From NCBI GenBank assembly GCA_019744775.1, contig JAIETZ010000005.1, positions 124,001-188,000 on the forward strand: a DNA stretch of 64,000 nt. The letters are read 5' to 3'. The position numbers and the translations under genes are program-made. The stretch is from Candidatus Obscuribacterales bacterium (lineage in GTDB: Bacteria > Cyanobacteriota > Vampirovibrionia > Obscuribacterales > Obscuribacteraceae). This document shows, in pieces, positions 17,640 through 47,524 of the stretch (its first letter is position 1; every line of letters begins with the position of its first letter). A model generated the notes under the pieces. That model searched no databases. It was not told the origin of the DNA and was given only the letters and a program-made list of their open reading frames with translations.

Positions 17640-17644
17640 CCTCA

Positions 17645-22299: not shown

Positions 22300-25200
22300 A
22301 TGCTTCGTCAGCGCTTTTTTGCGTCCTTATCGCTCATTCTATTTGCGTTTACTAGTTACGTGCCCATAGCACGGGCACAAGACGCTTCTGCGGCAGCACC
22401 AGCAGAAACTCAACACCATTGCCACGGCGGCGGTGGCTGGGGCGGCCAGACTAACGTCAATTTGGACTTGGGCTCAACGGCGGCAACCGTTACTGCGCCA
22501 GCTTGCGCCTCAACTCCTGTAAACATCAATATGGGCGGTGCAATGACAGCAATCGCCCCTGGTAGCCAGGTAACCCCGGCTCAAATGGTAGCTATTCAAC
22601 AAGTCATGCGGACAGGCAACCAGACCCTCATGCTCAACGCCATGGGCGCCGCCGAATCAGGCACCATGATGCTGGGCGCCAGAATGAGCCAGGTAATTAG
22701 CAGCCTGACAATTCCGCAAGGTGTTACTGTTTTGCAAAACGTAGCTCAATCAGGCGGTCTTAGCCTGGTAGGCAATTTGGTCAATTCCGGCAATCTATAT
22801 GCTTTTACATCCAACCCGGCAGTAACAGCTGCAACCTACGCAGCCCAAAACATCACCAATAACCAGAATGCTGTCTTGTCGACGCTGCTACCGGCTGCCT
22901 TACAGGCTAGTCTCAATCCAGCACTGACAAGTCTTACGCTCAATCTGACCGCAATAAACAATATCGTAAACGCAGGCACAATAACCAGCTCTGCCAACTT
23001 AAATCTCTACGCAGGTGGCTCAATTGTGAATGCCCTACCTGCAGGCGTTACTGGAATGAATCCAGTTATGCAGGCAATGCAGTCTTTGTCGCTAACTGCG
23101 CTATCCGGCTCAATTCAGAATGCCGGAGTTATGGCAGCTAATCTTGGCAATATCAATGTTCAAACAGCTCAAACTGCCAATCTTGCTTTGAACAACGTAA
23201 ACGGCGTTATGCAGGCAATGAACGGTGCGATTAACATCCGCGACAGCTTGTCATCAGCCAAGGTGAACAGTGAGTTGACTGGTGGTGATTTCATTGCGAA
23301 ACAACTAAATGTGTTTTCCGGCAATGGCATAGCCAATATATACGCAAACAATATAAGCGGGTTGGTAAATATTACCGCCGGCGAAGCTCATGTTAATACC
23401 GTTAGTGAAAATCTCGCTCTTGGTTCAATGAACCTCTCAGGTGATCCAACATTCTTCAACTCCGGCGATATCCAAATTACAGGCAACATCACAGTTGGCG
23501 AGAAGTTGGCAATCATTGCCGGTGGTGACATATATATCCCAAATGGATCAGTTGTAACGAAGATAGCTGCGCAAACCACGAATTCCGGCTTCGATATCAA
23601 TATTATTGCCGGAGCTAATATCACAAGCGGCAACGGTCCCAGCTCAACACTTTCCGGCACTCCGCCATCAGGAGGTGCGACAAGCATAGTCACTATTGAC
23701 GGTGCATCAGCCAGTGGCGGCGACATCGATTTTTCTGCGGCTCCAGGTCTTGAAATTAATACCCAGGGCGCTTCATTTGGTCCGGGCGGCAACATAACCT
23801 TGGCCGCTTATGAAGGCACTGGTGGGGGTGGCGGACACGTCATAGTACCTGGATGGCTACGTTCAAATGGCAGTACAACAGCTGGTGACATAACTGTAAT
23901 AGCCGGAACAACTTCAACTGCTCCAATTACTGTTCAGTCAGGAGCCAGCGTTAGCGATGCAGTTCTATTGGGCGCAATCAGCACCCAAAATTCAGGCGGT
24001 GGTGGCTTTGTGCTCATTGCGACCGGTCAGCCAGTTAGTTCAACAGGAGCTCCGATTCAATTCAACACAGATGGAAGCACAGTAAATAATGCCAGGATTA
24101 TGGCACCCACTGCGCATAACGCTACAAACATCCGCTTTCAAGGTTCCGTCGTACCTGAGTCTATACTGGCAGTCACGGGCGGAAATATAGTCATAACCAC
24201 ATCAGGCAGCATTTCCAATTTCAGTGCTTCGGCAATAGCTCTTGCTGCTGGAGGAAATATCAGTTTAGGTGGATATCTAGATACGCAGTCTTCTCCAATT
24301 ACCGTGGTCGCAGGCGGCAATATTCAAACTACCGCTCAAATTAGCATCGAAACAACACCCAACTCAGCTCCCGCTTCTCAGAATGGACATATAAGACTGA
24401 TTGCCGGGGCTAATTTCTTTACGGATAATTCAAACGCAATCAATATTACCGGCGGTTCGGGAACCGGCGGTAATATTACACTTCAAGTTGGCACTAGTCT
24501 TCTTACTGATCGCAACGGCTTCAGTGGGAATGCTGGAGACATTACTTTGATTGCATATTCCAATGGTGCCACCGGCGGGATAATTTCTCTTCCTGGATTT
24601 GGTTCACCAGCTTCGGTAATTTCCACAGGCGCTGCGGGCACTGGCATTAATGGTGACATCACTGTAATTGCCGGCTCCAACAGCACTTCGACAACAATCT
24701 CATCTTCACCTGGATGCGTCTTCTGCATTACCTACCCATCATTTTGGACAAGTGGAGGCACTGGTGGCAACGGTAACGTAACAGTAGCTTCCGCCGTTCC
24801 GGAAATTATTTGTCCTGGTTGCACGAACAACTATTACACAATTGCCGCTAATGGTGTAAGCACTGGATATTTCACGGCCGGTAATTTACTGGCGGGTGAC
24901 ATTGCAATCAACCCGATAACCACCGGCTCTAATAGTTTGGTTCAAATATACTCAACAGGATCAATAAATGTAGCAAGTGGTCCTGTAACTGCTTGTGCAG
25001 GATGCGCTCTTGTGGGTGGATCGCCAGCTTCGATAATCACGAATTGTTCAGGCTGCACAGTGGTTAACAACACCAACATCCCTTCATCGGCAATTGCAGC
25101 CATCAATGCCGCCGGTGCCTTTACGCTAACAATCATTAGCGCTGCAGACGGCAACATCACACTAGGTTCCGGCTCCGCTCTCAATATATTTGCACCAAAT

Positions 25201-28200
25201 GGCGCCACCCTAATTGCTAACGGAAGCGGAAATATAACACAATTCTCCACGTCAACCATCAACACAAGCAGCATCAATCTTGCTTCAGCTACAGGCAATA
25301 TAGGATCCTTAACGGAGCCAATCATCATCGGCAACAGCTCCGGAGACAATTTCAATATGCGCGCTTCTACTAGTGGTGGAGATGTCTACGTTCTTCCTTT
25401 GGGCATGGTAACTATTGGAGGAGGTACAGCGGGAAGTGGCAAGACATTTTGGGTACATACCATTCCCAACGGTAATGGCTACGGCCGAATTGCCTATACC
25501 GGACCAATTGTTGCGTCCGGCGGCACGATTGATTTCCAATCTACATCTATTAATCCAGGACTAGGCGGCATTATTGCTATCGGTCCAAATGCCTACTTAA
25601 GTGCATCAAATATTATTTTGAATGACATCGGCAACAGTACAACTGCCGGAGCCGCTGATATTAGTGGTGAGAACGGCACGCAAATGAATATCACTGCCGA
25701 TCAGTTAACCGTCAGCACAAGCGGCAAAGTAAATATCAACAATAGTGGTACAAATATCACAGTCAATCAATTAGATGGCTCAGAAACCAATTTAACAACC
25801 GATGGAGATATAAACCTAGCGGCACTAATTGCCACTAATGGAAGACCATTCTCACTTAGCTCAGCCGGTAATATCGGCTTATCCAATAGCATACTGACCA
25901 CAGGCGGATCGCTCTCGCTTATTTCCGGAGGTAGCATTCTTACGCAAACCGCAGGTGTATTCATTAGCACCAATAATGGAGCCACAGGTGACTCCGGCGA
26001 CATCATAATAATCGCCGGAGCTAACTTCACAACAGACGAAGATGGAGCAGTAATTGTCAACGGACAATCAGGCTCAGGCGGCAGCGTAAACCTGGATAAT
26101 GGCAATCCGTCGCTAGGAATTGACTCTTCTGCCACCGGGTCAGGAAACGCCGGCAATATCACGATACTTGCTTTTGGCGGAGCCGTAGTTCTTCCCAACA
26201 CTGTATCTATCACTGCCAATGGTGCAGGCGCTACAAAAACCAACGGCAATGTGCTAATTGCTGGAGCCGGCGGTGTTCAACTAGGTGATATTTCCGCTGT
26301 CGGCGGAGGCGGTGGCTACGGCAGCATAACAGTTGCTACTGCTCAACCTGCGATCTTGTGCCCATCGTGTTCAACCAATAGTGTCAAAATTGTTGATGCC
26401 AAAACCAATATCACCACGGGTATATTTACCGCCGGGGCGATAACTCTGTCACCACTGGATATCGGTGGCAATGTTTTCGGTAGTGGACTAGTTCAAATCA
26501 TAAGTGCCGACACAATTAATATTGGCGGAAATGTTATAGGAGGTTGCTCCAATTGTGCGTTCGCCGGCATTGGTCCGGTTAACTGTCCTGGATGCACCTC
26601 ATTAACGATCGTATCCAGTTCAAACATCTCCGTTAATGGCGGCGGTGGCAGTGGCGTGACTGTCGACCTTACAGGAGGCACGACAAAGAAACTCTGGATA
26701 CAAACTGTCGGATCAACCGCAACGTTAACCGTTGGTGGCGGCGTAACCTTTACAGATGAACTGACACTTGTCTCCAACGGGACAATGCAAATCAACAATG
26801 CTGTAACTGGTCCAGTAATAAATATGATTGCCGGCGATATTTTCACCAATGCCAGCAATATTCAAGGAACCGGTCTTGTAACAATAGGCAGCTTGGAAGC
26901 AGTAACTAATAATGCCAACATACAAGGAACTGGCGTCCATTTCCTTATTGGTAATCAAGGATTTGAAAATTCCGGCACGGTGACCGCAACAGGACCAGGT
27001 GGAACTATTGCAGTCATTTCAATGGCGGCGCCCAACCTTATCATCAACAACACCGGCAACTTAAATAGTGGTGCTAACGGTGATGTGTTCATCATGAACG
27101 GCTTCGGTCATGTCTCGTTGGTCTCAGATCTGACTTTAGGTGCCGGCAACGACTTAACCATATTTAGCGCAGGCAATATTGTGGCAACGGGCTCAGCCAG
27201 TCAACTTTCCGGAGGCAACATTCGCTTCTTTGCCGGTGCTGAATTACAAGTTCCGGATCTTACTCAAGTTGTGGTGCCAATCTTGAGCACCATTACCGGA
27301 AAATCAAGTACGACGGGTGGCAATATCGGTCTCGAGAACTTAAATACTGTCACTGCTGACTTCAGCTATTTTGCCGCTCGCGCATCACAAAATGGAGCCG
27401 GCGTAAATGGTTCTATAGCTATAGCGATAAATACAGGCACGATTATCTCCGGTGGATTCCATGTCTTGTCTGAATCCAACACCAACCCCGCTATTACAAC
27501 TGGCGGTGTAATCAACAATAATCAGTTTTCGCACAATATTTTCGCCAGCATGACTTTCAATAACACGCCAGGGGCACTACCCGTTGCTTCTGCATCAGCC
27601 TTTATTGCCAATCAAAAGGCAGGCAGTGTCACGACTGAAAACATGATCGGGACATATTTAGGTGTAGTCGATCACACAAATGGCGTTATCGACCACGGCG
27701 ATATTGTCGGCGCCCAGACAGTTACCGCAACCACTTTTAATAGCTTTGCCTCCAGCAAGATAGATTTAAAAACAAATGTAGGCGGTGTTACTACCCGCCT
27801 AACGATGTTCGGCAACACGGCCAACACCGGACCAATGACCAAAGACGGCGCTACCATGAACAACACTCAGGCTCAGAGTCCGCCAAACAATGTGTCGGTG
27901 ACGAATTTTAACAACGGCACACCGCCGCCACCACCACCTCCTCCTCCTCCTCCGCCGCCACCACCACCTCCTCCCCCGCCGCCACCACCGCCGCCGGGAC
28001 CAACGCCACCACCGTCTAATCCGGGAGCAACTCAAGACCAGACTCCAACTAAAAGCAACAATCCACCTACCGATACAACGGGTAATACCCGCAATACTGA
28101 TGCTGACGGAACTGATGGCAGAACTGCTCAAGACTTGACACCATTTGGTGATCAAGCAGATTTACCTGATGATTGGTGGGATTGGGCCAAAGATCTTGTC

Positions 28201-31200
28201 CCACGTGGCGACAACGAATCCTACGACGATTGGAAAGCTCGCGCTAAAAACATCGCTCAGACTTTAGTCAATGCCTTTAACGAGCCGGTCACTGCCGACT
28301 TGCCTGAAGACTGGTGGGACGACTGGAAAAACCGTGTTCCACGTGGAGATGGAGAATCTTACGACGCCTGGAAGACACGCGCCCAAGGATATGCGCAGCA
28401 ATACTACAGCGGCGATCTCAAAGGTCTCATGTCCAGCATGCGCAATGGTCAGCAACGCCTGAATCAAGCTGATGGTTCCTTTAACGACATGGGTAACATC
28501 GTCGACAATTTGAAAAATGCCATCGGCAAGGACACATGGAATGGTTTGACATCGCAAGAGAAAAACAATCTTATTGCTGGGGAGCAATATGAGCGATACA
28601 CAGATGCACTAGCCGATCAGGTTGTTCAGATGATGAACAACGGCAATCAGCAATCATCACCACCTGTTGATCGCAATCAGCTTTCTTGGAGAGATGCAAC
28701 CACCAAGACTTACGGAACCGACCAAGAAGTTGCCAACGCAAATAAACTCTTCAATCAAAAATCTAATGCACTGTCCGCAAATACTGGTGAATGGAAAGAT
28801 AGTGGCTTACCTGGCGGAGATGTCTTTGATCAAGGAGACATCATTCTTGGAGAAAATTCGTCCAATACAGTAAAGGATTCCGTTAAAAAAGGCGGAGTTC
28901 AGACTTTTGTCGATAAGGGCGGCTATCAGCAAGGACAAGCCCAGTTCGACACCTCACTAACTGGTTCGTCTCAAACACAAGCAGACGCAAATCAACTGAA
29001 ATACAACTCTAATACCGGTAACTTCAGTCCAGCCGAGGCAGAAAGACAGTTCACTGGAACAATGCAGGATCCGTCGCATTATGGAACTTATGGTCCTATC
29101 CAAAGCGGCACGCTAGGATCATTGTCGCAACAGTCCGGACTCAGCCTTAATGGAAACAACTCCGGATTCAACCTCTCTAATGCTCCGGCTCTAAGTGGCA
29201 ACACCACTAACATCAACGACTACGGTCCAACTGGTTATAACGCCCCGACAACCGGTATTATCAACAAATCAATTTTGCCGGAGAATGGTGTACCAAACAG
29301 CTGGCAGCCTGGTACTGGTCAATACGCAGGACAATTCGTCCAGACTACAAACAATCAGCATAATGCTGAGGGTCTGGCATTGAGCACAATGCAAAACATC
29401 CCCGGACTTGCGCAGTCAACCGGTTGGAGCAGCACCGTCCCAGTTGGTTGCCAGGCTAGCAATTGTCACTTGACCGGTCAGAGTGTTGTTACCGGACAAG
29501 ACTTGCACATGAACAGCGCTACCGACTTAAATGGAGCAATGCAGCAGCTAGGATTAGCAGCTCAGGGCATTGTCCAAGGTGGCATTGAGCAAGGCAATAA
29601 GGGTAATGCAACCTGGTACGCAGAGCACGGTTGGGTACAAACTCCGGTCAACCCCAACTCTCTATCCCAAGTAAACCACCTGGCATCAGTTGTCTATCAA
29701 AGTGGTGGCGATGCTAAGACTTCCCACACAGGCACACTAATTGTCGAAGGCAACAATTCAGGCGTTATTGAAAGAGCAGGTGTTGGTCAAACGCCACAAC
29801 TTATATCAACATCCGACTTCACCAACGTTCACTTAGTGGACAGCAATGGCAAGCAAGTCAGCATGAGCGACGCAATCAAGAATGGCGACCTCAAGTTCTA
29901 TGTGCCTGATCAGGCAACACAGAATATTCAAGATCCTCAAGCACAGCTTAATCAACAGCAGGCGATAATGGACAACGCTAGAGTCCAAGATCTTGGACAA
30001 GGACCATTAGGTCAAGTCACTCAAGACACAGCTAAGAATTTCTTTGATCCTAATCAAATAGGCAGCAACATCACCGAAGGTGCTCAATCACTAGCCAAGG
30101 ATTTGGGACTGGATACTTTCGCTCAGAACATGCAAAATGGTGCGCAAACCGTACAAAGCGGCGCTCAGCAATTGCTCGACAACTTCCAATCGGGCATGCA
30201 AAACATTATGCAAAATAATCCACTTGTTGGACACTTAGTTGCCAGCGAGGGCAGCGATGCGCAGGGAATGCAGCAGCCAAAACTCGATATGAGTAACGGC
30301 GGTGTCGGCAGTGAATCGCCAAACTTCGGAGAATCATTATTGCAAAGCCTCAGCAAGTCTATGGTTACAAATAAGATTGATCAAGGCACTCAAGCAATCA
30401 CCGATACCTTCATGGATACAGACAATCCACTTGTGATGGACGCAGCTAAACTCGGCGGCGCGGCTTTGGCGGTACCAGTCTCCGGTGGCATACATACTGC
30501 AGAAGCCTTTAACCCAATGGTTAAGCAATTGGACAATCTTTTGGGTGCAATAAATCAAGCAGGTAATGCCGGAGCAGATTTTGGCGAGCAAATTCACAAT
30601 AAAGGATTGGGAGCTGCTTTGCAGGACAGTTTCAACAGTCTTTCCCAGAACACTGACCTAAACACATTAGGCAATGCACTTAATCCGATGGAATTTGTCG
30701 ACAATACCAAAGCCGGATGGGATTCAATTGGCAATGCGGCTAACAATCTTGGTAGTGCTATTCAAAAGGATCCAGGCGGAGCCTTGGGTACCGTCATTGG
30801 AGAAACATCCAACATATTGCTTCCTGATCCGCTGATTTTGGGTGGCGCTAAGGTACTAGGCGCACTCAGCGATGCAGGAAAAGCAGCCACCGAAATTAAG
30901 GGAGCCGCAACCCTTGCAGACAATATGCCACAAGTCGTGAAGCAAACCGGAGGCAAAGTACCAGGTGACACTCATGCAATCACATTTTCCGATGGCAGTT
31001 CCGTTCTGCACGACAGGACAACAGGCAATCTGGTGCGAGATCTGGGCTCTGGAGAAAAGGTATCTCTTGAGGGAGGAGCCTGGAAAAACGAAGGGCTAGA
31101 CGATTCATCAAAATTCGCAACCAATCTCAAAGAATTACAATCCAACCCTAATGTGCCGATACCACTCATGGATTTGGCAAAGAGCTCATCATTTAAAGAA

Positions 31201-33006: not shown

Positions 33007-33069
33007 ATATAGACTCAGACTGCTAAGGATAGCTAGACGCGGGCGTTCTATAAGTTATAAAATTCAACT

Positions 33070-34338
33070 GTGAACGGCATCCTTACTACGTCTCCCGTAA
33101 ATATTGGCAAATTTATTAGCTGTTTGTTGATTACTTCAACAGCTTTGCCTGCTTCGGCACAGACATTTACCAATCAGACTGCAGGACAAGGTTCTACGCA
33201 ACCCCAAGCCGTTGCCCAGCTGATTGCGCAACCCAGCCTGGATAGTGGCCGCTTTGCGCCTGTAAACCCGACTGTTCTTCCAACGGACATCAATCCACAA
33301 TTATTCTCATCCGAGCGCTCTATGGTCAATCGCGATTTGCAATTCGCCATATTGAAACGTCTGCCGGAACGCATGTGGTTCAACATGGTTACCGAAGCCA
33401 GTCAGCGCTTGGAAACCAACGTATTCTTCACCAACAGTCGCCCGAGACAAGACTACGTTTTCCGTATTTTGCCGAACGTATCTCTTGGATATAACATTTT
33501 CAGCAAGACTGCAGTCTACTGCAATTGGTTTTTGATCAAAGACGTCTTCGCCTCACATTGGCAACTCAGCAAGCCAGTGACTCAATCACTCTCACTTGGC
33601 TTTCGTCAGGACATCCCGATTTTTAGAAAGACAAACCTTCAATTTGATTTTCAAGCTCGTGAATTATGGCAAGCTCCACATTTGCAACAAGCGGATTTAC
33701 TGCCGGCAATCAATTTGACCCAAATAGTCAAGCCTAATATTGTTCTTTTCGGCAGCAGTCTTCTCCAGTTAAGAAGCCACTATTACTTCCAGGGCGCCAC
33801 TCGTGAAATAGATCCCTTCTGGTCAGGTGGACTTCTCTACCGTCGCGGCATGTGGAATTTCACAGCAACTGCAACTTATGTTGCTAACTTCCGCAACCGT
33901 AATGCAATTCCCCCTATCAACAACCAATCTATGATCTGCGATTTTGAATTATCACGTCCCGTATCTAAAAAGGTCCCCAGTGTCGTAAGCTTCATTCGTG
34001 CAGAACCAGTCTGGAACTGGGGAGCGCCGGGCAACCCACCAGGACTTAGCGGCTTCGATTTTCGTCTCTTTAGTGGCATTCGCGTGGCAATGAACAAGCC
34101 GGCATACAATGCCACCGTTGACCAATTGCGCAAGCAATTATTGGAGATGGAAGAAGCACCACCTGCCAATAATACTGAACCGAAAAAGACGAGTTACATG
34201 TCTCCTGAGCCTGTATACGATATGCATGGTCTCTTGCCGGGAAATGCAAACTCGGAAAATATGAATATTGCATGTTCCACAAATAGCGTCAATTCAGGTC
34301 GTACAGCTTGCGAATCGTCTCTCTATCACGTGAAGTGA
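33070..34338 (+). CDS. Putative outer-membrane beta-barrel-like protein 1
   Basis: A 422-aa protein with a signal peptide (ISCLLITSTALPASAQ). The core (residues about 75-360) has alternating aromatic/polar strands (DYVFRILPNVSLGYNIF, SLSLGFRQDIPIF, NLQFDFQARELWQ, SHYYFQGATREIDPFW) as in barrel proteins, with a soluble Gln/Glu-rich tail. I do not recognise a named family. It is very similar to the protein at 35453-36691, and both are next to a giant gene, which suggests a role in export or anchoring. GTG start. The last 50 bp overlap the convergent metzincin gene. Confidence 0.65.
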   Translation: MNGILTTSPVNIGKFISCLLITSTALPASAQTFTNQTAGQGSTQPQAVAQLIAQPSLDSGRFAPVNPTVLPTDINPQLFSSERSMVNRDLQFAILKRLPERMWFNMVTEASQRLETNVFFTNSRPRQDYVFRILPNVSLGYNIFSKTAVYCNWFLIKDVFASHWQLSKPVTQSLSLGFRQDIPIFRKTNLQFDFQARELWQAPHLQQADLLPAINLTQIVKPNIVLFGSSLLQLRSHYYFQGATREIDPFWSGGLLYRRGMWNFTATATYVANFRNRNAIPPINNQSMICDFELSRPVSKKVPSVVSFIRAEPVWNWGAPGNPPGLSGFDFRLFSGIRVAMNKPAYNATVDQLRKQLLEMEEAPPANNTEPKKTSYMSPEPVYDMHGLLPGNANSENMNIACSTNSVNSGRTACESSLYHVK

Positions 34339-35452: not shown

Positions 35453-36691
35453 GTGCTCCGCCCCCGTCAACGAAGATTCAAATATCTTGCCTTGAGCACT
35501 CTACTTGCTTCGTTGAGTTTTAGCTCTGGCGCCTCTGCCCAGCCAGCGCCGCCCAACCAACAAAATAATACAAATCAGCAAAATTCAATTGCGCAACAAA
35601 ATCTTGATAAGGTTCTAGTTGCAGCAGCGCCTGCTGGTGATGTCGTTCCTTTTAACCCAACTGTACTTCCGACAGACGTCAACCCAGAGATGTTCACCGG
35701 CGAGCGCTCCATGATGAGCCGCGATTTGCAGTATGCTATTTTGAAGAGACTGCCGAGTCGCATGTGGTTCAACATGGTGACTGAAGCGAGTCAACGTCTT
35801 GAAACCAACGTCTTTTTCACAAGCAACAAACCAAGGCAAGACTATGTCTTTCGTATTCTGCCTAACTTATCCTTAGGCTACAACGTCTTTAGCAAGACTG
35901 CCGTCTATTGCAATTGGTTCCTCATCAAAGACGTCTTTGCCGATCACTGGCAGTTGAGCAAACCGGTTACACAGTCACTCTCACTAGGTTTCCGTCAAGA
36001 TATTCCACTTTTCAAAAAGACAAACTTACAATTCGACTTCCAAGCTCGTGAACTATGGCAAGCTCCACATTTCCAGCAAGCGGACTTATTGCCTGCCATC
36101 AACTTAACTCAAATAGTCAAACCAAATTTCGTCCTTTTCGGCAGCAGCTTAATGCAATTGCGCAGTCACTACTATTTTCAGGGTGCCAAAAGAGAAATAG
36201 ATCCATTCTGGTCATGGGGTTTCCTTTACCGCCGCGGGATGTGGAATTTCACTGCCACCAGCACTTACGTGGCTAACTTCAGAAATAAAACTGCTATTCC
36301 ACCAATCAATAACCAATCAATGATCTGCGACTTTGAATTATCGCGACCAGTGTCCAAGAAAACGCCCGGCATCGTAACCTTCATCCGCGCAGAACCAGTC
36401 TGGAACTGGGGCGCACCAGGCAATCCACCAGGACTAAGTGGTTTTGACTTTCGTTTATTTAGCGGCATTCGAGTAGCCGTCAACAAACCTGCCTATAACT
36501 CGACCGTCGAATTTCTGCGCAAACAAATAATGGAGCAAGAGGAAGCAGCACCACCAGAAAGCAAGCCAAAAGAAACAAGCCAGCAACCGGACGTCATCTA
36601 TCCGGCACCAGTAACAACTCCGCATGGTTTACTATCGCTTGCCACCTCAAAAGGTGACGCAATACATGCAAAATTGCTGCCTGAATCGTAG
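35453..36691 (+). CDS. Putative outer-membrane beta-barrel-like protein 2
   Basis: A 412-aa paralog of the protein at 33070-34338. The whole core, from NPTVLPTD through KPAYN, is nearly the same; the signal peptide (LALSTLLASLSFSSGASAQ), the Asn/Gln-rich spacer and the C-terminal tail differ. GTG start. It is 153 bp upstream of giant gene B, while its paralog is downstream of giant gene A. The strict core conservation beside diverged ends suggests strong constraint on the barrel-like part. Confidence 0.65.
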   Translation: MLRPRQRRFKYLALSTLLASLSFSSGASAQPAPPNQQNNTNQQNSIAQQNLDKVLVAAAPAGDVVPFNPTVLPTDVNPEMFTGERSMMSRDLQYAILKRLPSRMWFNMVTEASQRLETNVFFTSNKPRQDYVFRILPNLSLGYNVFSKTAVYCNWFLIKDVFADHWQLSKPVTQSLSLGFRQDIPLFKKTNLQFDFQARELWQAPHFQQADLLPAINLTQIVKPNFVLFGSSLMQLRSHYYFQGAKREIDPFWSWGFLYRRGMWNFTATSTYVANFRNKTAIPPINNQSMICDFELSRPVSKKTPGIVTFIRAEPVWNWGAPGNPPGLSGFDFRLFSGIRVAVNKPAYNSTVEFLRKQIMEQEEAAPPESKPKETSQQPDVIYPAPVTTPHGLLSLATSKGDAIHAKLLPES

Positions 36692-36740: not shown

Positions 36741-36771
36741 AGGGTACGTTAATATTGGCGCGAGGGTACGT
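36741..36771 (+). promoter_or_regulatory. Direct repeat AGGGTACGT, spaced 22 bp, upstream of giant B
   Basis: AGGGTACGT at 36741-36749 and again at 36763-36771. The 22-bp period (two helical turns) suits two regulator molecules on one face of the DNA. It lies about 75 bp upstream of the giant B ATG. Confidence 0.4.
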
Positions 36772-36844
36772 GGTTTTAAGAACGCGGAATAACGCTGGCT
36801 AAGCCTTATTTTTGTCGTCTTCACATGTTGCATCGGGGAATTAT

Positions 36845-39800
36845 ATGAAACGTCTTTGTTTACAGCGGCTATTTGCCGGCGTTGCAGCTTCATTTCTACT
36901 ATTGACCACTTGCCTTCCGCCAGCCTTGGCTCAAGAAGCCGCCGCACAAGCAGCACAATCGGCTACCGCCGCAGCGGTTAATTTGGACCTATCCTCGACT
37001 GAAGCGAGCGTTATGGTCCAATCCGTGGGGCAAGCGGCTGCAGTGCATGTAGATATGGCCGGCACTATGGTCCCGATTACGGCCGGAGCCCAGGTAACGC
37101 CTGCCCAATTTGTAGCTCTACAGCAGATAATGCAAACGGGCACCCAGACCTTAATGTTAAATGCCATGGGGGCAGCCCAGTCTGGCACCTTCTCGATGAA
37201 TTCTGCCCTTACAAGTATGATGGGCAATTTGACCATTCCATCTGGTGTAACAGCTCTCCATGACGCTGCCGGTGCTTCAATGGTCAACCTCACCGGCAAC
37301 CTAGTAAACTCCGGCGCATATTACGCCTATACGTCTAATGCCGCGGTGACTGCAGCCACTTTGGCGGCACAAAACATAACCAACAATCAAAGCGCCATTA
37401 TCTCTACCATTCTGCCGGCGGCTCTGCAGGCAAGCTTAAATCCTGCCCTGACAAGCCTCAGTCTCAATTTGAGCGCCATCAACAACATTGTCAACGCCGG
37501 TACTATCAGCAGTGCCGCCAACTTAAATCTCTACGCCGGCGGCTCAATAATTAATTCACTCCCACCGGGTGCTACCGGCCCGTCACCAGTCATGATGGCC
37601 ATGCAAGCACTAAACATGACAGCCTTAAATGGTGCCATCCAAAACTCAGGCGTTATGGCTGCCATGCTGGGCAACATCAATGTACAGGCGGCACAAACAG
37701 CCAACATGACACTCAATAACGTCAATGGAGTCCTGCAAGCTTTGAATGGCTCGATAAACATTCGTGATAGTTTGATGACCACCAAGGTAAATACTTCGCT
37801 CTATGGAGGAGACTACATCGCCAAGCAACTGAATATTTACTCCGGCGAGGGAGCTGTTGATGTAAATGTTAGAGACATTAGTGGTGTCGCCAGAATCACA
37901 GCCGGAATAGCTCATGTGATGACTGCCAACCCAACACTAAAACTTGGTGAGATGAATTTGAGTGGTGATCCGACTTACTTCAACACTGGCGATATTCAAA
38001 TTACGGGAAACATTCTTGTCGGTGAGGCGCTCTCCATAGTGTCCGGAGGCAGCATCTATATTCCTAACGGCACTACAGTCAACAGAATTCAAGCCAACAG
38101 TGCGACAACCGGACAGGGCTTTGACGTCACTATCATTGCTGGTGCAAACATAACTGGCGGCACTGGTTCTACCGGAGCGATCTCTGGAAGCCCACCAAGT
38201 GGCGCAGCGACCAGTCCTGTGACCATAAGCGGGCCATCGTTAACCGGCGGAGACATCGACTTTTCCGCCAGTCCCAATATGCAAATCAGCTCCTGCTCCG
38301 GCTGCTCACCAGGTCCGGCATGTTTCGGTTGCGTTGGACGCAATATCACATTAGCTGCATATTCCGGCACAGGCGGCGGAGGTGGTCATGTAATAGCGCC
38401 AAATGTTTTTGTTGTGTCCGGTTCCAGCGGCAACGGAGATGTAAATGTTATTGCAGGCGCCAATACCGCAGCACCAATTGTCGATCAAACTGGTGCAACA
38501 GTAACTGATGCCATTGTATTTGGTAACTCCCTTACATTTGGCAGCAACAACACGGGAAATATTAATCTATACACCGCGCAACCAAGTACAAATCCAATCG
38601 TATTCGGAACCAATGGAGCAATTACATCCGGCAGTATCACCCCCCAAACGACACTTAAACCAACCAACATCCAATTCTCCAGATTCATATTTATCACTGG
38701 TGGACTCCGTGCTTATGCCGGAGGAAATCTTTCTGTAGCTAACGGTGCCGCTCTCCAAGTCAGCAATAACGGACCCTTGACACTTGCGGCAAAAGGTAAT
38801 GTCTTTCTCGATGCAAATCTAAGTTCCAGAAGAGGCGGGATGCTTTCCATAATCGCTGGACAAGACATTCAATCACTATCAGAAATCAGCATCGACACAG
38901 TTCCCACTACCTTTAGTGGCACACCAGTAAATGCTGGTGCGATGAATTTCATCGCGGGAGCCGACTTTTCAATAAGTCCGACATACGACATTGTCATAGC
39001 ACCTGGAGCATCAGCCACCGGCGGGAACATCTCTCTGTCAAGCGTAAGGAAAATTGACTCACACGATTCTACCAATTTTTTAGGTAGTGGTGGAGACATC
39101 AACTTTGTCGCGCTAGCTAACGGAGTGTCTGGCGGAACCATCACACTGCCGGGATTTGGTGGTAATACCGTCTTCAGTATTACGACGGGAGGCGATACAC
39201 CAGGACAAAACGGCAATGTCACAATAATCGCAGGATCACCAAGCACAGCAACAACAATAACCTCCCAACCTGGCTGTACCTTCTGCCTCCCAACCGCTTC
39301 AATTAACACGGCTGGTGGGACAGCCGGAAATGGCAACATAACGATAGCATCAGCGACTCCTGAAATTGTTTGTCCCGGCTGCCCAACAACAAATATAACT
39401 ATTAGCTTCAGTGGTGTTCAAACCGGATTCTATTCCGCTGGAGCATTGCAGCCCGGAGACATTCTGCTCAATGCGCTCACGACGCCATCGAAGAGCTTAG
39501 TTCAATTATTTACACAGGGTACAGTAACATCTGGAGCAGTGACGGCTTGTGCCGGCTGCGCGCTAGTCGGCGGCGATATTGGTTCGACAGTTGTCGGATG
39601 CGCCGGATGCACTGTTGTTGCTGACACCAATATTCCTTCTGCAACATTGGCCGCGATCAATGCAACAAACGTAGCCAACATCACCATCGCCACAGTTAAT
39701 AGCGGCGATATCATAATCGGCAATGGCTCACCGATTGCTTTGTCCGCCAGTAATAGCCTTAGGCTCATAGCAAATGGCTCAGGCGACATAACCCAATTCC

Positions 39801-42800
39801 TCACCTCGACGCTGTCGACAGCCAATTTCACGGCAGTTAGTGTCTCCGGCAATGTAGGAACTCCAGCAGCTCCTTTAGTGCTGCTGAGTCCTACTGCTCA
39901 ACCCATCAATATCTCTGCATCAGCTGGTGGAAATGTTTACCTAGCTCCCACCGGTTCGGTAAATCTAGCAAGTGGTTATGCAGGCGGTACAGGACAGACC
40001 TATTATGTCCACACAACAGCAAATGCGGGAGGCAATGGACGCATCTTCGTGGTTGGCTCTCTGACAGCGACAAATGGCACACTGGACCTGCAAGCGTCAT
40101 CATCAGGAACAGGACAAGGCGGAATAATTGGCGGTCCTTTATCACCGGTCCTCACAGCTAACAATATTTTGTTGTTTGACATTGGCACAAGCACAGCAGT
40201 TGGGGCAGGCAATATCAATGGACAGCAGCAAGTACAAGGTGGAACTATCACGTCGCCCCTTCTTATTGATGCTTCAGATCTTTCGATCAACACTTCCGGA
40301 GCAGTAATTATTGAGAACCTCAGCAGTTCTATAACTATCAATCAACTAGTATGTTCATCATTTGAATTTGTCGGAGCCGGGGATTTATTAGTCAATACAC
40401 CAGTGGACAGCGCAGGCGGTCCACTACTATTGTCCACTACAGGTAATTTAGGGTTGGGCGCAAATTTAACAAGCACAGGTGGCAACATTCTGCTAATAGC
40501 TGGTGGCGACATCTACACATTCCAACCTAACGTGTCTATTACTTCCACGCCGACAAGCCCTGGCTCGGGAGCACAAATCAACATTATTGCCGGCACTGTT
40601 TTCTTTAGAACTGGCAACCAATATGCAGTCGGTGGTGCTTCTGCAACAGGTGGCAATATCAACTTGAATAATGGCAATCCTGTTATTGCATTAAGCTCTG
40701 TCGCAAACGGCTCTGGTGACGGCGGCAATATCAACATAATTGCCTATGCATCTAGCGGCGGTTTAGGTGGCAGTATTGTATTGCCACCAACTCTGACCGT
40801 TACAGCAGACGCATCTGGTCCTGGATTTGCCAATGGAAATGTCCTCATAGTAGCCGGCGCACTCAGCACTGCCAGCAGCATTGGCAGTGTAAGCGCAGGA
40901 CTTGGTACCAACTATGGCAGTGTTACCTTTGCCTCAGCAACACCATCTTCGTTTTGTCCAATATGCGCGGGCAACTTTGTCACTATTTCGAACGGGGCAG
41001 TTTTTCCAAATAATGGCATCTTTGCGGCAACAACCTTGTTGGGCGCACCAATAACAGTCAGCGGTAACATATCATCCAGTGGAATTGTTCAATTGTTCTC
41101 TACCAATTCAGTGACAGTCACAGGCACCGTCACAGCCAATCCAAATTGTACCGGTTGCATTATCGCCGGCACCGGCACAGTTAATTGCCCCTCTTGCGGA
41201 GCTGCCGCATCGGGCACAAACCTTGCCATCAATGGACCAGGACCACTTTTAGGACCAGAAAACCTGATAACCTTTACCGGTAGTGTGCCTAGTCTATTCA
41301 TTCAAGCTGTAGGAGGATTGAACACCTATATCAGTGTTGATAGTCTTCCTGGATTGTCCATAAGCGGCAACCTTACTCTAGCTGCACCGATGGGCAGCAT
41401 TTTTCATTCCGGCGGCGGTACAACCAGTGCTCAGACAATTTCACTCTATGCACTAAATAATATTTTCAATGATGCCAGTACATTAACATCCACTGGCATG
41501 ATGACAATTGCGGCACAAAATGCTTTCGTCAATTCCAATTCTGCTACCGTGCAGGGCGACAATGTAGCAATTGTCACCGGACAGTTCTTTAATGACAGTT
41601 CAATAACTGCAACTGGAACTGGCCAGATTGCAGTTCTTACTCAAAGAGCGAGTAATTTAGTAATAAATCCAATCGGCGGCACGCTCACTGGCAATACCGT
41701 ATTTTTCATGAATGCCACTACTACAGGGCTCGGTGGAACAGTCGAATTATTTGGTGATCAACTATATACCGGTGATGCATTTTACGTATTTGCTAGTGGC
41801 GATATCAATGCTGATGCCAGTGTCACCCAAATTTCAGCATTCGGCCTAAATTTCTACGCAGGCGCGCAACTAAATATGCCAAGCTTGACTGGTTCTTCGA
41901 TTGATATTTTAGGTACGATCACCGGCAATTCGAGCTCTAGTGGTGGCAATATCAATTTAGGCAACGTATCAAGCATAACCTCTAACGGGTTTGGTGATTT
42001 CTTCGGTGCACGAGCCGGTGGTCCAAATGGCACAAAGGGCCGTATAACAATGGCTACAGCAGGGCTTATGACAGTTGATGACGCAAGACTCCTTGCTGAG
42101 GCAAATGGCGGACAAGGCATAACTATTGGTGATGCGGTTGTCACCAGTGACTCTTCATCGTTCAGGCTTATTACGATGGACTTTCCAACAACGGCAGGCA
42201 TTTTGCCGTCAGCTCCTATAGGACTTTTTAGTCCATTAATTAAGGATGCTGATGTTACGGCAGGCGACATTTCCGGTGGGTTAAACGTAATCGTAAATAG
42301 CAAAGGCAACAACGTAATTGCAAATATTCTTGGACCAGTACAACTTCTTGCTGCGACATTTAAGACTTTCAATGTAGACAACATCAATTTAGTTACAAAA
42401 TTTGGGATACCAACAAGAATAATTGCTTCCGGTACCACCGCGAACATCGGAGCCATCAGAAGCAATGGCATATATCAACCAAATCCACAAAGCACTCCAC
42501 CAAATCAAATTTCGATCACAAATTTGAATTATCCATCAGGACCAACACCGCCACCTCCACCTCCACCTCCACCATCTCCTCCAGCTCCGTTGCCACCTAC
42601 TCAGTCGAGACCAGACCCAAACACACCACGCCGAATAGAGACCACATTTCAACCACCGGTCTCTCAAACAAACAACGATAGAACGGGCACGGACGGCAAG
42701 ACTCCTTTAGACTTCACGCCATTTGGTGATGTCGCCGATATTCCACAAGACCTCATAGACTGGCTCAAAGACGTAATTCCCCGCGACCCGAACCAGACTT

Positions 42801-45800
42801 ATGACGACTGGGCAAAAGACGTAAGACAACTGGCACAAGCCCTAAACAATCTGAACAGTCAGCCGCCCAACGTAAATCTCCCTGAAGATTGGTGGGATGA
42901 CTGGAAAAATCGTGTGCCGCGTGAACATGACGAAACCTACGATGCCTGGAAAGACCGTGCACAAGGCATGGCTCAGCAATATTTCAATGGTGACATGAAA
43001 GGCTTGATGACAAGTCTGCGCAACGGCAAAGAAAGAATAGACGAAAGTAAGATGCCCTGGAATGACATGGGCAACATCATCGACAATCTCAAATCAGCTG
43101 TCGGTAAAGATGCCTGGGCAGGCATGTCATCACAGGAAAGAAATGGCTTAATTCAAGGCGAACAGGGTGCTCGATTTCAGCAATACCTGGCAAGTCAGCC
43201 ACAAACTCCCGTGTTTGACAGAACACAACAGAGCTGGAGAAATGCGACAACCAAGAGCTACTCGCCAGAGAAGATAAATGAGATGCTCCAGAAACAGGGT
43301 GTTAAGAGTATCGATCAGCTAAGAGATATCGAAAAAGCGAGAGCCAATTCGCCTGAGCAACATTCGACCTTTGAATTATGGAAAGACAGCTCAGGTACCC
43401 AGTTTAAAGTAGATCTCTTTTCTGGTGATATGACACCAGCCTTTTCCTTTGGTCAAGATGGAATTATTTATGGTATTGATACTGCCGGCACTGTGCGTGC
43501 GGATGATCCGAATGCAGGCAAATTCCAAGAACACGCCCAACGGTTCGATCTTAGTGTCAGTCATCAAGACTTTGCCAGAGCAGACATTAATGAGATGAAA
43601 GGCATAGGCAATGACTTCCGTGCGCAGGGACCGACTTCTGCGTTTGTCGGAAATCCAAATGCGGACGGCTCAGGCATCAACAAGTTTGGAAGCACTTATA
43701 ATCCAGCAGTTACAGGCAATGCAAACATTAACAACTACGGACCTGGTTATGCCGGATACAATCCACCAACGACTGGCAACGTAGGTAGCATTCTTCCAGG
43801 GAAATTATCGAACATCTATAACAAAACCGACGGTGGCGAATATCAATTAGACAACAAAGCTGGAAGCAATTCCGTCAAACAAGCTCTCGGGGTAATGGGT
43901 CAGATGCAAGGGACACAAGACTCAATTGGCTGGTCTAGTGCTCAAAGCTGGGGACAACAATGCAGCAATTGTCACCTAACTGCCCAATCAGTCGTCACAG
44001 GACAAGATTTGCATGCAGACAGCAAAGAAGCAGCTATAAATGCCAATGGCGGATTTGGGAAAGGCAATATGGCTTCCGCTACAGATATGGCTCAACATGG
44101 CTGGGTGCAAACACCAGTCAATTGGGACAACATGTCGCAAATCGATCATATTGGCTCGCTAACTTATCAGTATAAGAACGATGTTCAAACATCTCATAGC
44201 GCGACAATTATCAAAGAAGGACAGAACACCGGAATGCTCGAACGATCCGGTGCGGGTTACTCGCCGACGTTAATTAACAAGACGGACTTTGCCAATGTTC
44301 ACCTTGTCGATTCAAATAACAATCCTGTCTCTCCACAAGATGCACTCGCAAGCGGCATGATGAAAGTGTATGTTCCAGATACAAAGACATCTCAAATTCA
44401 AGATCCGGACGCTCGCGCTAGCCAGCAGCAAGCCATTATGGACCATGCGCGTATGACAGATGTTGGACAAGGCGGTATTGCCCAAGACAATCTGGTGAAG
44501 AGCTTCATCGATCCGAATACGTTCATTAGCAACAGCAAAGAAGGGCTAAATACAATCCAAAACGAATTCTCTAAGCTCGTCCAAGGAGCCCAACAGAATG
44601 CTCAAAATCTAGCCCAAGCCGGTAATCAGTCCGTTCAGCAAATTCAAAAGCAAATGGAACCCTTAGTCGGACATCTTGTTGCCAGCGATAAAACTGACGG
44701 TCAAGCTCAAGCAATGATGCAACCAAAATCGGCCCCTGATCCTAACGCTAAGCCGGATGCAATGGATGGACTAATTAAGAGCATGGTCACTGATCCAATT
44801 AGTGATCTGACAAAACTTGGCACCCAAGCATTTGCAAATACAAGTGATCCTGATGTTATGGCAGCCGCCAAACAATTCGGTACTATTGCTGGCGTAGCAA
44901 TGTCCGAGTATAAATTCGCTCAACCGATTATAGAGATGCATACAGATCCAGGCGCTGCTATTGGTCACAGCATTGAAAACACTATAAAAGCAACAGGCAA
45001 CACACTGTCTGAAATAAACAAAGCCGGTGGCATTGGTCCATACTTAGATACCAAAGTAGATGCTATGACAAACGCCGCACACAAAGGCGTTGACGCAGTC
45101 GCTGAAAATCCTGCATACACGCTTACCGAAGCTGCAGGAAAGGGACTCAACTTACTGCTGCCAATTCCAGGAGGCAAACTTGCTGCATCCGGAAAAATTG
45201 CCGAAGAAGTTGGCGGCGCAACCAAACTAGCAGGTGAGATTCAAGCCGCAGGTGAAACAACTGGGCTTATCGGCGAAGCTGCAGGAAATCAAATCAGCCA
45301 CGGAAATACAGGCGCAGTTCAAGCGAGCATGTCCGATATTAAGAAAGCGCTCGAGCAAGGAGGAGTATCGACTCAAGATATAGCAAATGCTGGAAGAATT
45401 GCTGATTCAGACGCACAACCATTTTTGTCAGTTCTGCCAGGAAATGAACACGATATGGCATTCGTACAAGGAGCAATGAAAGACGCCTCTCAAAATGGAG
45501 TATTAAGATATGACGCTTTTGGTAATCCATATACTGCCACAGGCGTCGAGATGGGATACATCACTCCAAGTGCTGCACAACTGAAGGGACAAGGCACGAG
45601 CCTAATGGCTTCTGCTCCTGAAGGCACTAAACTCGTTGTGTCTGGTGGACCAGATCGAATTAATTTCGGCAGCGAACAACCACTAAAACTCGACGGTCAC
45701 ACACATACCAATGACGGTTTTGCTCCGTCATCATTAGATTGGGATGCGCAAGCAACCACAAACCAAGTACGGGAATCGATGGGATTGCCACCATCCAATT

Positions 45801-47524
45801 CTCAATTCATTGTGGACGTGCCAACAGGATATACTCACACATTCGGCTCACAAACTATGACTGTGCCCGGAAGTCCAATACCAGTTGGACAAACATCGGA
45901 AGCTACAAAAGCAATTACACTCTCTGGCAATGCTTCAATTGAAGGTGCAGCTCAGGTACCGTATGGTTCTTTTACAGAAATTGCGTCTTCAGATGCTCAG
46001 AAAGCAATTGCAACACGTCCTGAAGCATTTTCATCTGCACAATATCCAACACTATCAGCAAATCCGTCGAGTCAAAACAGTGGTCTCAGTCTTGGGAATA
46101 GTTCCAACGATCGACGAACACCCATCAATCAAAATAGATTCGTTGGAAGAGGTCAGCAAGCAAGTACAGACGGACAAGCATCTAAATTTGTTGGAAATCG
46201 CCAAGGTCAAACTGTCCAGCCATCGACTCAATCGGCAAACAGTAATTCAATTCCAATGCAGGGAATTAATCAAGCAGCAATGCCGGATTTTCTGACAAAC
46301 CCCGAGACCTCCAAATATTGGGCGCCCCTCAAAAATAGTGTTGAGCAATTTGGCTCCGGACCAGCTGTAATTTCAAAACCTATTAGCGAACTTGTTGCAA
46401 GCGGTCAAGAAAAAGCGGTACTCAATTTGATAGAACAGGCTCCAGGAAACTATACCTACTACGCTTCCGGCACTGAGGGTATTGTATTCAAGAATGAAAC
46501 CAACGACATTATTAGAGTCGGTCCACGGGAGACTATAAATCGTCCGCAATCAGATCTTGTGTTGCAACCGAACAGGACGGCAAACGTGGGCAACTACACA
46601 TTGGAGCAGCTTCCTTTTGCTCCAAGTCAAGGTTTATCAACTTTTGACGTCAAAACCATGGCAAATGCATTAGCCGAGAAGGGATTGTCATTTAAGCCTC
46701 GTGAAGCCATACCCCAAAATATCGGACGAGTTCAATCTGGACCTTCTGCCGGAAAAATTGTAGTTACAGATCCCAACGCGGTTTATCAAATTCCAAAAGG
46801 TGCGGTTTACAATCCCGAATTGATGGCTTGGGAAAAACCAAGCACTGGTCCGATAGCTGTAGATTTCAGAGCAAATCCCAATTCTCAACATGCCGACAAA
46901 CTCCATCAAAGAGTTGCTCTAACCTGGAACGCTTCCGATGGTCAATCTGCACTTATGAATGACTTTGAACCAATTTATATTGCAACTGCAGATCTACCGG
47001 CCCCCAACATTAGTAGTGAAGACACCATATCTGAAAACGCAGTAGCTGGATTGATAGCAGCCTCCAATACCGAGTATTCCGTAACAGTGACAAGTGGAAA
47101 TGTGAAATGTCCAAAGGGCTCTTGTGTATTCATTCGTGACAGAGGACGTGATGTCGGAATTTACGTATTCGAGAAAAGTTCAAATGGCGATGTTGTATTC
47201 AAAGGACGAGATGGTCACTATACAAAATTGCAACCAGGTAGATTCCTTTTCATCAGTACCGGGCATAACGTCACGGCTGAAGATGTAAATCCTGTTTCTA
47301 TCATTGGTTTACGTGGCATCGAGGAAATTAAGCTAAGCAAGGAATTTAAAGCATTCACTGGTGACTTCTCCATAATGGCTGCATGCATGCAACTTCCACA
47401 TTTTAAGAATATGCTTTCATCAAAAACTGCAGCTGAGCGGAAAATGGCTGAAGGCATTCTCAAGAATGTCGCGATTCTTGGACAAATCACAGCAGGCGAT
47501 GGTCCGTTCAAACAACTCAGGTAG
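36845..47524 (+). CDS. Giant modular exported protein B (3559 aa)
   Basis: Paralog of giant A. Signal peptide at residues 1-30 (FAGVAASFLLLTTCLPPALAQ). FHA-like beta-helical repeats with CxxC motifs run to about 1890, followed by a proline-rich joint (about 1902-1922) and twin DWW repeats (about 1959-2040). The Cys/His segment has C2376 and H2451. Here the JAMM signature comes first (E2902, H2952, H2954, S2962, D2965), then a Gln/Ser/Asn-rich linker, then the kinase-like segment (K3216 in GIVFK, D3309 in VTDPN); this is the reverse of giant A. The FecR-like domain (about 3399-3559) ends it. ATG 36845 follows GGGGA; a TTG at 36812 is less likely. It converges on the 138-aa gene with 3 bp between. 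Confidence 0.85.
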   Translation: MKRLCLQRLFAGVAASFLLLTTCLPPALAQEAAAQAAQSATAAAVNLDLSSTEASVMVQSVGQAAAVHVDMAGTMVPITAGAQVTPAQFVALQQIMQTGTQTLMLNAMGAAQSGTFSMNSALTSMMGNLTIPSGVTALHDAAGASMVNLTGNLVNSGAYYAYTSNAAVTAATLAAQNITNNQSAIISTILPAALQASLNPALTSLSLNLSAINNIVNAGTISSAANLNLYAGGSIINSLPPGATGPSPVMMAMQALNMTALNGAIQNSGVMAAMLGNINVQAAQTANMTLNNVNGVLQALNGSINIRDSLMTTKVNTSLYGGDYIAKQLNIYSGEGAVDVNVRDISGVARITAGIAHVMTANPTLKLGEMNLSGDPTYFNTGDIQITGNILVGEALSIVSGGSIYIPNGTTVNRIQANSATTGQGFDVTIIAGANITGGTGSTGAISGSPPSGAATSPVTISGPSLTGGDIDFSASPNMQISSCSGCSPGPACFGCVGRNITLAAYSGTGGGGGHVIAPNVFVVSGSSGNGDVNVIAGANTAAPIVDQTGATVTDAIVFGNSLTFGSNNTGNINLYTAQPSTNPIVFGTNGAITSGSITPQTTLKPTNIQFSRFIFITGGLRAYAGGNLSVANGAALQVSNNGPLTLAAKGNVFLDANLSSRRGGMLSIIAGQDIQSLSEISIDTVPTTFSGTPVNAGAMNFIAGADFSISPTYDIVIAPGASATGGNISLSSVRKIDSHDSTNFLGSGGDINFVALANGVSGGTITLPGFGGNTVFSITTGGDTPGQNGNVTIIAGSPSTATTITSQPGCTFCLPTASINTAGGTAGNGNITIASATPEIVCPGCPTTNITISFSGVQTGFYSAGALQPGDILLNALTTPSKSLVQLFTQGTVTSGAVTACAGCALVGGDIGSTVVGCAGCTVVADTNIPSATLAAINATNVANITIATVNSGDIIIGNGSPIALSASNSLRLIANGSGDITQFLTSTLSTANFTAVSVSGNVGTPAAPLVLLSPTAQPINISASAGGNVYLAPTGSVNLASGYAGGTGQTYYVHTTANAGGNGRIFVVGSLTATNGTLDLQASSSGTGQGGIIGGPLSPVLTANNILLFDIGTSTAVGAGNINGQQQVQGGTITSPLLIDASDLSINTSGAVIIENLSSSITINQLVCSSFEFVGAGDLLVNTPVDSAGGPLLLSTTGNLGLGANLTSTGGNILLIAGGDIYTFQPNVSITSTPTSPGSGAQINIIAGTVFFRTGNQYAVGGASATGGNINLNNGNPVIALSSVANGSGDGGNINIIAYASSGGLGGSIVLPPTLTVTADASGPGFANGNVLIVAGALSTASSIGSVSAGLGTNYGSVTFASATPSSFCPICAGNFVTISNGAVFPNNGIFAATTLLGAPITVSGNISSSGIVQLFSTNSVTVTGTVTANPNCTGCIIAGTGTVNCPSCGAAASGTNLAINGPGPLLGPENLITFTGSVPSLFIQAVGGLNTYISVDSLPGLSISGNLTLAAPMGSIFHSGGGTTSAQTISLYALNNIFNDASTLTSTGMMTIAAQNAFVNSNSATVQGDNVAIVTGQFFNDSSITATGTGQIAVLTQRASNLVINPIGGTLTGNTVFFMNATTTGLGGTVELFGDQLYTGDAFYVFASGDINADASVTQISAFGLNFYAGAQLNMPSLTGSSIDILGTITGNSSSSGGNINLGNVSSITSNGFGDFFGARAGGPNGTKGRITMATAGLMTVDDARLLAEANGGQGITIGDAVVTSDSSSFRLITMDFPTTAGILPSAPIGLFSPLIKDADVTAGDISGGLNVIVNSKGNNVIANILGPVQLLAATFKTFNVDNINLVTKFGIPTRIIASGTTANIGAIRSNGIYQPNPQSTPPNQISITNLNYPSGPTPPPPPPPPPSPPAPLPPTQSRPDPNTPRRIETTFQPPVSQTNNDRTGTDGKTPLDFTPFGDVADIPQDLIDWLKDVIPRDPNQTYDDWAKDVRQLAQALNNLNSQPPNVNLPEDWWDDWKNRVPREHDETYDAWKDRAQGMAQQYFNGDMKGLMTSLRNGKERIDESKMPWNDMGNIIDNLKSAVGKDAWAGMSSQERNGLIQGEQGARFQQYLASQPQTPVFDRTQQSWRNATTKSYSPEKINEMLQKQGVKSIDQLRDIEKARANSPEQHSTFELWKDSSGTQFKVDLFSGDMTPAFSFGQDGIIYGIDTAGTVRADDPNAGKFQEHAQRFDLSVSHQDFARADINEMKGIGNDFRAQGPTSAFVGNPNADGSGINKFGSTYNPAVTGNANINNYGPGYAGYNPPTTGNVGSILPGKLSNIYNKTDGGEYQLDNKAGSNSVKQALGVMGQMQGTQDSIGWSSAQSWGQQCSNCHLTAQSVVTGQDLHADSKEAAINANGGFGKGNMASATDMAQHGWVQTPVNWDNMSQIDHIGSLTYQYKNDVQTSHSATIIKEGQNTGMLERSGAGYSPTLINKTDFANVHLVDSNNNPVSPQDALASGMMKVYVPDTKTSQIQDPDARASQQQAIMDHARMTDVGQGGIAQDNLVKSFIDPNTFISNSKEGLNTIQNEFSKLVQGAQQNAQNLAQAGNQSVQQIQKQMEPLVGHLVASDKTDGQAQAMMQPKSAPDPNAKPDAMDGLIKSMVTDPISDLTKLGTQAFANTSDPDVMAAAKQFGTIAGVAMSEYKFAQPIIEMHTDPGAAIGHSIENTIKATGNTLSEINKAGGIGPYLDTKVDAMTNAAHKGVDAVAENPAYTLTEAAGKGLNLLLPIPGGKLAASGKIAEEVGGATKLAGEIQAAGETTGLIGEAAGNQISHGNTGAVQASMSDIKKALEQGGVSTQDIANAGRIADSDAQPFLSVLPGNEHDMAFVQGAMKDASQNGVLRYDAFGNPYTATGVEMGYITPSAAQLKGQGTSLMASAPEGTKLVVSGGPDRINFGSEQPLKLDGHTHTNDGFAPSSLDWDAQATTNQVRESMGLPPSNSQFIVDVPTGYTHTFGSQTMTVPGSPIPVGQTSEATKAITLSGNASIEGAAQVPYGSFTEIASSDAQKAIATRPEAFSSAQYPTLSANPSSQNSGLSLGNSSNDRRTPINQNRFVGRGQQASTDGQASKFVGNRQGQTVQPSTQSANSNSIPMQGINQAAMPDFLTNPETSKYWAPLKNSVEQFGSGPAVISKPISELVASGQEKAVLNLIEQAPGNYTYYASGTEGIVFKNETNDIIRVGPRETINRPQSDLVLQPNRTANVGNYTLEQLPFAPSQGLSTFDVKTMANALAEKGLSFKPREAIPQNIGRVQSGPSAGKIVVTDPNAVYQIPKGAVYNPELMAWEKPSTGPIAVDFRANPNSQHADKLHQRVALTWNASDGQSALMNDFEPIYIATADLPAPNISSEDTISENAVAGLIAASNTEYSVTVTSGNVKCPKGSCVFIRDRGRDVGIYVFEKSSNGDVVFKGRDGHYTKLQPGRFLFISTGHNVTAEDVNPVSIIGLRGIEEIKLSKEFKAFTGDFSIMAACMQLPHFKNMLSSKTAAERKMAEGILKNVAILGQITAGDGPFKQLR

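Follow-up and report, generated by a model that had tools for sequence, protein, structure and literature searches.

Giant exoproteins of Obscuribacterales share terminal domains, and their C-terminal domain is genetically linked to a predicted outer-membrane barrel

How giant exported proteins leave the cell, and which neighbouring gene products hold them, is the question raised by a locus in a 64,000-nucleotide stretch of Candidatus Obscuribacterales bacterium DNA (contig JAIETZ010000005.1; hereafter the window), taken from a genome of 4.1 Mb. A preliminary description had proposed that two outer-membrane-like proteins (OMP1, OMP2) export or anchor two adjacent giants. The open reading frames (ORFs) confirmed its five genes and their order: giant A, OMP1, a metzincin on the opposite strand, OMP2 and giant B. 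The features are listed below in window coordinates, with N-terminal and C-terminal domains abbreviated as NTD and CTD.

22300..33006, +, giant exoprotein A, ORF of 3,568 aa
22456..23532, +, NTD of giant A, residues 53-411, predicted beta-helix (HMM match 9e-141)
27934..27996, +, proline joint of giant A, seen in the sequence
28042..28821, +, DWW repeat module of giant A, from sequence and A/B comparison
29350..29925, +, module of giant A with conserved Cys and His, papain/CHAP-like by eye only
30964..31575, +, kinase-like module of giant A (by eye), order differs in giant B
31597..32268, +, JAMM-motif module of giant A, HTHx7SxxD at about 32011-32052
32551..32970, +, CTD of giant A, about 140 aa, followed by the 11-residue tail TAGEGPFKQVR
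33070..34338, +, OMP1, 422 aa, predicted 12-strand outer-membrane barrel, 63 bp after giant A
34289..35338, -, secreted metzincin, TPR and matrixin-type, 349 aa (HEVGHALGINGHS)
35453..36691, +, OMP2, 412 aa, predicted 12-strand outer-membrane barrel, upstream of giant B
36812..47524, +, giant exoprotein B, ORF of 3,570 aa, ATG at 36845 the likelier start
36977..38056, +, NTD of giant B, the domain used for the AlphaFold model
42656..43270, +, DWW module of giant B, preceded by a Pro-rich joint at 42546-42588
45290..45940, +, JAMM-motif module of giant B, sequence motif
46343..46795, +, kinase-like module of giant B, by eye and A/B comparison
47069..47488, +, CTD of giant B, followed by the tail TAGDGPFKQLR

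Sequence comparison of giants A and B, both of which carry signal peptides, showed colinear paralogues with one moved module, in agreement with the earlier account of two related proteins of about 3,560 aa with a shared architecture. Their identity is 42% over residues 1-2884 and 66% and 53% in the last modules. Giant A is built, in this order, of signal peptide, NTD, beta-helical stalk, proline joint, DWW repeats, Cys/His, kinase-like and JAMM-motif modules and CTD; the DWW repeats and proline joints noted before are present in both giants. Of the peptidase-like modules, one could be substantiated and the others received no assignment. This module satisfies the JAMM/MPN motif E-xn-H[ST]H-x7-S-x2-D in A and B, and HTHx7SxxD and an upstream Glu are invariant in 4/4 homologues, which supports a JAMM metallopeptidase motif at the sequence level. 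The kinase-like and CHAP-like calls were made by eye and have no database support. None of the JAMM, Cys/His and kinase-like modules matched Pfam, and the kinase-like module had no PDB relative either. Among the loci searched these three modules are limited to A, B and same-genus relatives. Matches of the JAMM piece in phmmer to designed repeat proteins and to cytokinin dehydrogenase were short or of low complexity and were discarded. The metzincin call was verified by a PF00413 match (E 9e-9) located behind the TPR repeats; a 349-aa protein, thus of the same size, lies at the corresponding position of a same-genus locus (L053). The enzyme may process the giant/OMP pair.

The two OMPs had been called near-identical, which is too strong for an identity of 78%. 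Their barrel-like character was confirmed by structure prediction: the AlphaFold model shows 12 strands over residues 104-345, mostly with pLDDT above 90, and predicts a closed outer-membrane barrel with no POTRA domain. Foldseek searches with this model detected outer-membrane barrels (E down to 1.7e-7, identity 6-11%), namely the generic barrels OmpG, KdgM-like VhGalP, PcoB and FadL, and also FapF, NalP and EstA with low TM-scores (TMt about 0.5 for FapF). The family is conserved across 37 aligned proteins; searches of Pfam and NCBIfam with each of these in turn, accepting E up to 1, gave no family beyond weak barrel hints, Phenol_MetA_deg and FomA porin. A tree of the OMPs splits into two clades, and OMP1 and OMP2 belong to the main one.

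Both giants begin and end with domains of their own kind. The NTD of giant B was modelled by AlphaFold as a beta-helix with pLDDT 93.5; the NTD has no match in Pfam, TPS domains included, and no significant PDB neighbour, its weak, non-significant structural matches being beta-helix proteins such as the HxuA and EtpA TPS domains. No family of C-terminal autotransporter barrels was found in A or B by the family scan, as already described, and both giants end in the CTD. Judged from its sequence, this domain of about 140 aa is rich in strands in its N-terminal part and helical in its C-terminal part. Scans of 40 CTDs against Pfam and NCBIfam gave scattered chance matches only, and the type IX sorting models were unmatched, also when giants A and B were searched against NCBIfam. 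A helical GGA_N-GAT model weakly matches the C-terminal half of 7/40 CTDs (best E 1.6e-4), which suggests a helical bundle behind a strand-rich portion. CTD matches to designed proteins were discarded as short or of low complexity. The end of the giants had been described as FecR-like; this kinship was rejected, with a profile-profile probability of 1.3% and a single FecR (PF04773) match genome-wide, which lies outside the window and at no CTD position. OMP, NTD and CTD are thus new families without a Pfam, NCBIfam or PDB family match.

The same terminal domains, not considered in the preliminary description beyond A and B, recur in 20 giants of this genome. The NTD profile gave 29 matches, which correspond to 18 complete giants and two cut by contig ends; together these comprise 125,837 residues, take up 9.2% of the genome and range in length from 1,727 to 25,007 aa. 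Whatever its length, each of the 18 complete giants has the NTD at its N-terminal end and the CTD 8-44 residues from its C-terminal end, followed by a short tail that mostly contains G-x-[YF]. As the ends are constant and the middle varies more than tenfold in length, we read the ends as export and sorting modules. The longest giant, with NTD and CTD, is a single ORF of 25,007 aa that spans 75 kb (G000:C2:174643-249666, minus strand, loci L208-L211). An assembly artefact is unlikely here, because the ORF contains no N and every 31-mer is unique. On another contig, four giants of 5,765, 7,405, 3,942 and 10,865 aa lie head to tail within 85 kb (G000:C6:20935-105525, L188-L192). Some relatives have more NTD matches than this genome, for example 41 in G010, and their open frames reach up to 14,495 aa. 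Uncultured Omnitrophota likewise encode proteins tens of thousands of residues long in one ORF, with adhesion as a suspected role, one of 39,678 aa among them (PMC10066038). What sets the Obscuribacterales giants apart is that they form one defined family, with N- and C-terminal modules in common and a candidate partner in the outer membrane. The CTD is not restricted to giants. Small secreted proteins of about 150-490 aa have it too, in some cases twice.

The three families are confined to the order Obscuribacterales. OMPs were detected in 24/27 genomes of the order and in 0/13 genomes from elsewhere in the class, neither OMP nor CTD turned up in 385 further genomes sampled from the phylum, and a scan of a genome collection returned almost only Obscuribacterales/Melainabacteria records. 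Some bins that carry genes of this order are recorded as Chloroflexi or Proteobacteria (L111-L113, L118, L121, L130). The preliminary description had recognised no TPS domain in the giants; indeed PF05860 has no match in the present genome and matches 0/21 genomes of the order, and it gave clear matches in five genomes that belong to other families of this class. Four genomes of such families (G027, G030, G032, G035) have classical TPS domains and 2-3 POTRA_2 matches. The sole POTRA_2 protein of the present genome is BamA, encoded in a bamA-skp-lpxD-lpxC operon. With PF05860 absent and POTRA_2 restricted to BamA, both a TPS domain and a TpsB partner were rejected. The giants resemble TpsA/TpsB systems such as FHA/FhaC in their signal peptide, N-terminal beta-helix domain, long beta-helical stalk and adjacent outer-membrane partner gene; they differ in lacking PF05860, in a 12-strand partner instead of an Omp85 protein with POTRA domains, and in a pairing that follows the C-terminal domain. 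Unlike classical autotransporters, they have no C-terminal translocator barrel in the same polypeptide.

The preliminary description had suggested a survey for co-occurrence of OMPs and giants. Linkage proved to be non-random, but the OMPs track the CTD, which they also accompany in small proteins and in a genome without giants. In the main OMP clade 32 genes are linked to a CTD or NTD gene within two genes, 8 are unlinked and 2 lie at contig edges (32/40 testable). In the second clade, linked genes number 9, unlinked ones 30 and those at contig edges 3; one subclade of five rows is linked throughout. OMP homologs widespread without a giant neighbour had been named as an observation that would speak against the pairing; 38/85 OMP genes (about 45%) have no CTD or NTD gene nearby, so this observation was made in part, mostly in the second clade. 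CTD genes, giant or small, were found at offset -1 in 22/52 clade I loci and at +1 in 7/56, against a background of 7 matches among the 284 positions that lie 3-6 genes from the OMP, counts that rest on a rough clade split. OMP-adjacent small CTD proteins are as common as giants. In the present genome 4/7 OMPs have a CTD neighbour (P about 3e-6 under a simple independence model) and 17/20 giants have no OMP next door; with 20 giants and 7 OMP genes, the idea that every giant has its own OMP is ruled out. Pairs of OMP and CTD genes occur in three orientations (upstream, downstream, divergent), their adjacency is kept across more than 20 genomes, and in several (L142, L137, L138, L133, L140, L184) the two genes touch or share a few bases. 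The distance matrices of OMP and CTD correlate across 36 pairs (r 0.67), a value reached in 0/2000 full shuffles and in 2/2000 shuffles among paralogues within one genome; except for the within-genome shuffle, the linkage statistics count related loci as separate. The latter result speaks against species history as the sole cause of the correlation, and joint duplication of pairs is compatible with it. One genome (G009) has 5 OMP and 11 CTD matches and zero NTD giants, all three families are missing from G005 and G014, and the incomplete genome G003 gave 2 CTD matches and none for the OMP. The small CTD partners and the pattern in G009 show that the OMP tracks the CTD and not the giant as such. 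The constant unit is therefore OMP and CTD, rather than giant and OMP.

A comparable arrangement is known from type IX secretion, where the CTD of a giant type B adhesin is bound by an adjacent SprF barrel; the gene for the cognate barrel commonly follows immediately downstream, and orphan substrates rely on a shared barrel from another locus (PMC12618676, PMC9143113). SprB-SprF and PG1035-PorP-PorE have in common with the present families a giant exported protein, a conserved C-terminal domain and an adjoining barrel gene. What is shared is the placement of the barrel gene beside the gene for the CTD protein, a likeness of organisation only that does not imply kinship. The Obscuribacterales OMP is unmatched by the Pfam and NCBIfam PorP/SprF models, the CTD is unmatched by sorting models, and the phylum differs. 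By the models tested, OMP and CTD are thus not members of PorP/SprF or type IX. SprA_N (PF14349) was found in 0/26 genomes, and no control genome matched either.

We consider the chances about even that these proteins form a lineage-specific outer-membrane display system of Obscuribacterales that would operate along the lines of the type B CTD/SprF pair of type IX secretion. The giants would leave the cytoplasm via Sec, the NTD would start the long beta-helical stalk, and the CTD would dock at the OMP, whose barrel would hold the giant by its C-terminal end in the outer membrane and may, in addition, pass the giant across it. Docking is favoured since the C-terminal module is paired with a barrel of its own, in the manner of the type B pair. 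Giants whose gene has no OMP next to it would draw on shared OMPs from other loci. With the CTD docked at the OMP, the C-terminal end would be the anchored one and the beta-helical N-terminal part distal; in A and B the JAMM-motif module would then lie near the anchored end, with the stalk reaching outward. This is the reverse of the arrangement proposed before, in which the stalk presents enzymatic C-termini outward and which now appears doubtful. We infer the physical contact of CTD and OMP, the surface location, the translocation step and the enzyme activity. More tentatively, and with the odds somewhat against it, the families could make up a self-contained, previously undescribed secretion and display system that replaces two-partner secretion and handles polypeptides of up to 25,007 residues; its members would be NTD- and CTD-bearing cargo, the OMP barrel and possibly a Skp-like helper. 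No earlier description of the system was found in the literature searched, which includes only a minority of subscription journals.

The correlated divergence of OMP and CTD can also be produced by paired duplication, which counts against the display system, as do the OMP genes with no CTD or NTD gene nearby, the 17/20 giants that have no adjoining OMP and the CTD matches in G003. Linkage might be merely inherited from an ancestral giant-OMP pair that was duplicated repeatedly without functional coupling. Tandem duplication is obvious in A/B and OMP1/OMP2, and duplication as a gene unit predicts the matrix correlation; however, adjacency has been kept in more than 20 genomes despite three orientations and non-giant CTD partners, and the pairs often abut or overlap, which makes this explanation improbable. 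The OMP could be the secretion pore itself, in a new two-partner pathway independent of Omp85, with the barrel threading the giant and the CTD serving as recognition or stop signal. Twelve strands is the size of autotransporter translocators, and FapF, NalP and EstA are among the structural matches at low TM-scores. FapF, which secretes a surface polymer (amyloid), is a barrel of 12 strands that carries an N-terminal extension. The OMP likewise has 12 strands and an N-terminal extension; it has no sequence kinship to FapF, and its cargo is beta-helical giants and not amyloid. A pore of this kind would fit an order without the TPS domain, which the class does have in five genomes from other families, and gene coupling that resembles TpsA/TpsB. 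The generic nature of the closest barrels, the 17/20 giants without an adjoining OMP and the lack of a POTRA-like targeting domain point the other way, and we regard a pore as unlikely, if worth keeping in view.

Alternatively, the OMP could be an ordinary solute porin that is tethered or regulated by periplasmic CTD proteins, the giants having borrowed the CTD for this attachment and crossing by another machine. The nearest folds are oligogalacturonate and copper channels, there are weak matches to Phenol_MetA_deg and FomA porin, many OMPs stand beside no CTD, and small CTD neighbours are as common as giants. Such a porin would not lead one to expect the preference of clade I OMPs for CTD proteins of very different length, giants included, nor the correlated divergence of OMP and CTD, and we think it rather unlikely.

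The three alignable domain families, the 20 giants and the defined gene pairs offer a genome-wide handle on how surfaces are built in a little-known lineage of uncultured, non-photosynthetic relatives of cyanobacteria. If the CTD docks at the OMP, a giant adhesin with a C-terminal signal and a cognate barrel, the type B logic of type IX secretion, would recur in a second phylum with unrelated components. How proteins of 10,000-25,000 residues could be taken across two membranes is also a physical question about export.

Scans for promoters and terminators in the intergenic gaps of the locus stayed at chance level, and matches to plasmids and to phage families gave nothing useful. OmpH/Skp-like chaperone genes (PF03938 above cut-off) adjoin many OMPs, mainly of the second clade (L164, L173, L154, L177, L135, L043 and others), a neighbourhood in keeping with the proposed display system; another such gene of the present genome lies inside the bamA operon. 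Some second-clade OMPs also have a response-regulator-like gene of about 275 aa at offset -1 on the opposite strand (L144, L146, L147, L149, L152, L157, L169, L187). Upstream of giant A, the window contains an OMP gene relic (17641-17802, +; 63% identity across 32 residues, then stops) directly after a subtilase gene (16164-17639). Between this relic and giant A lies a gene (17886-21053, +) for a 1,055-aa protein with a weakly TadE/G-like N-terminal end (PF13400, E 0.0036).
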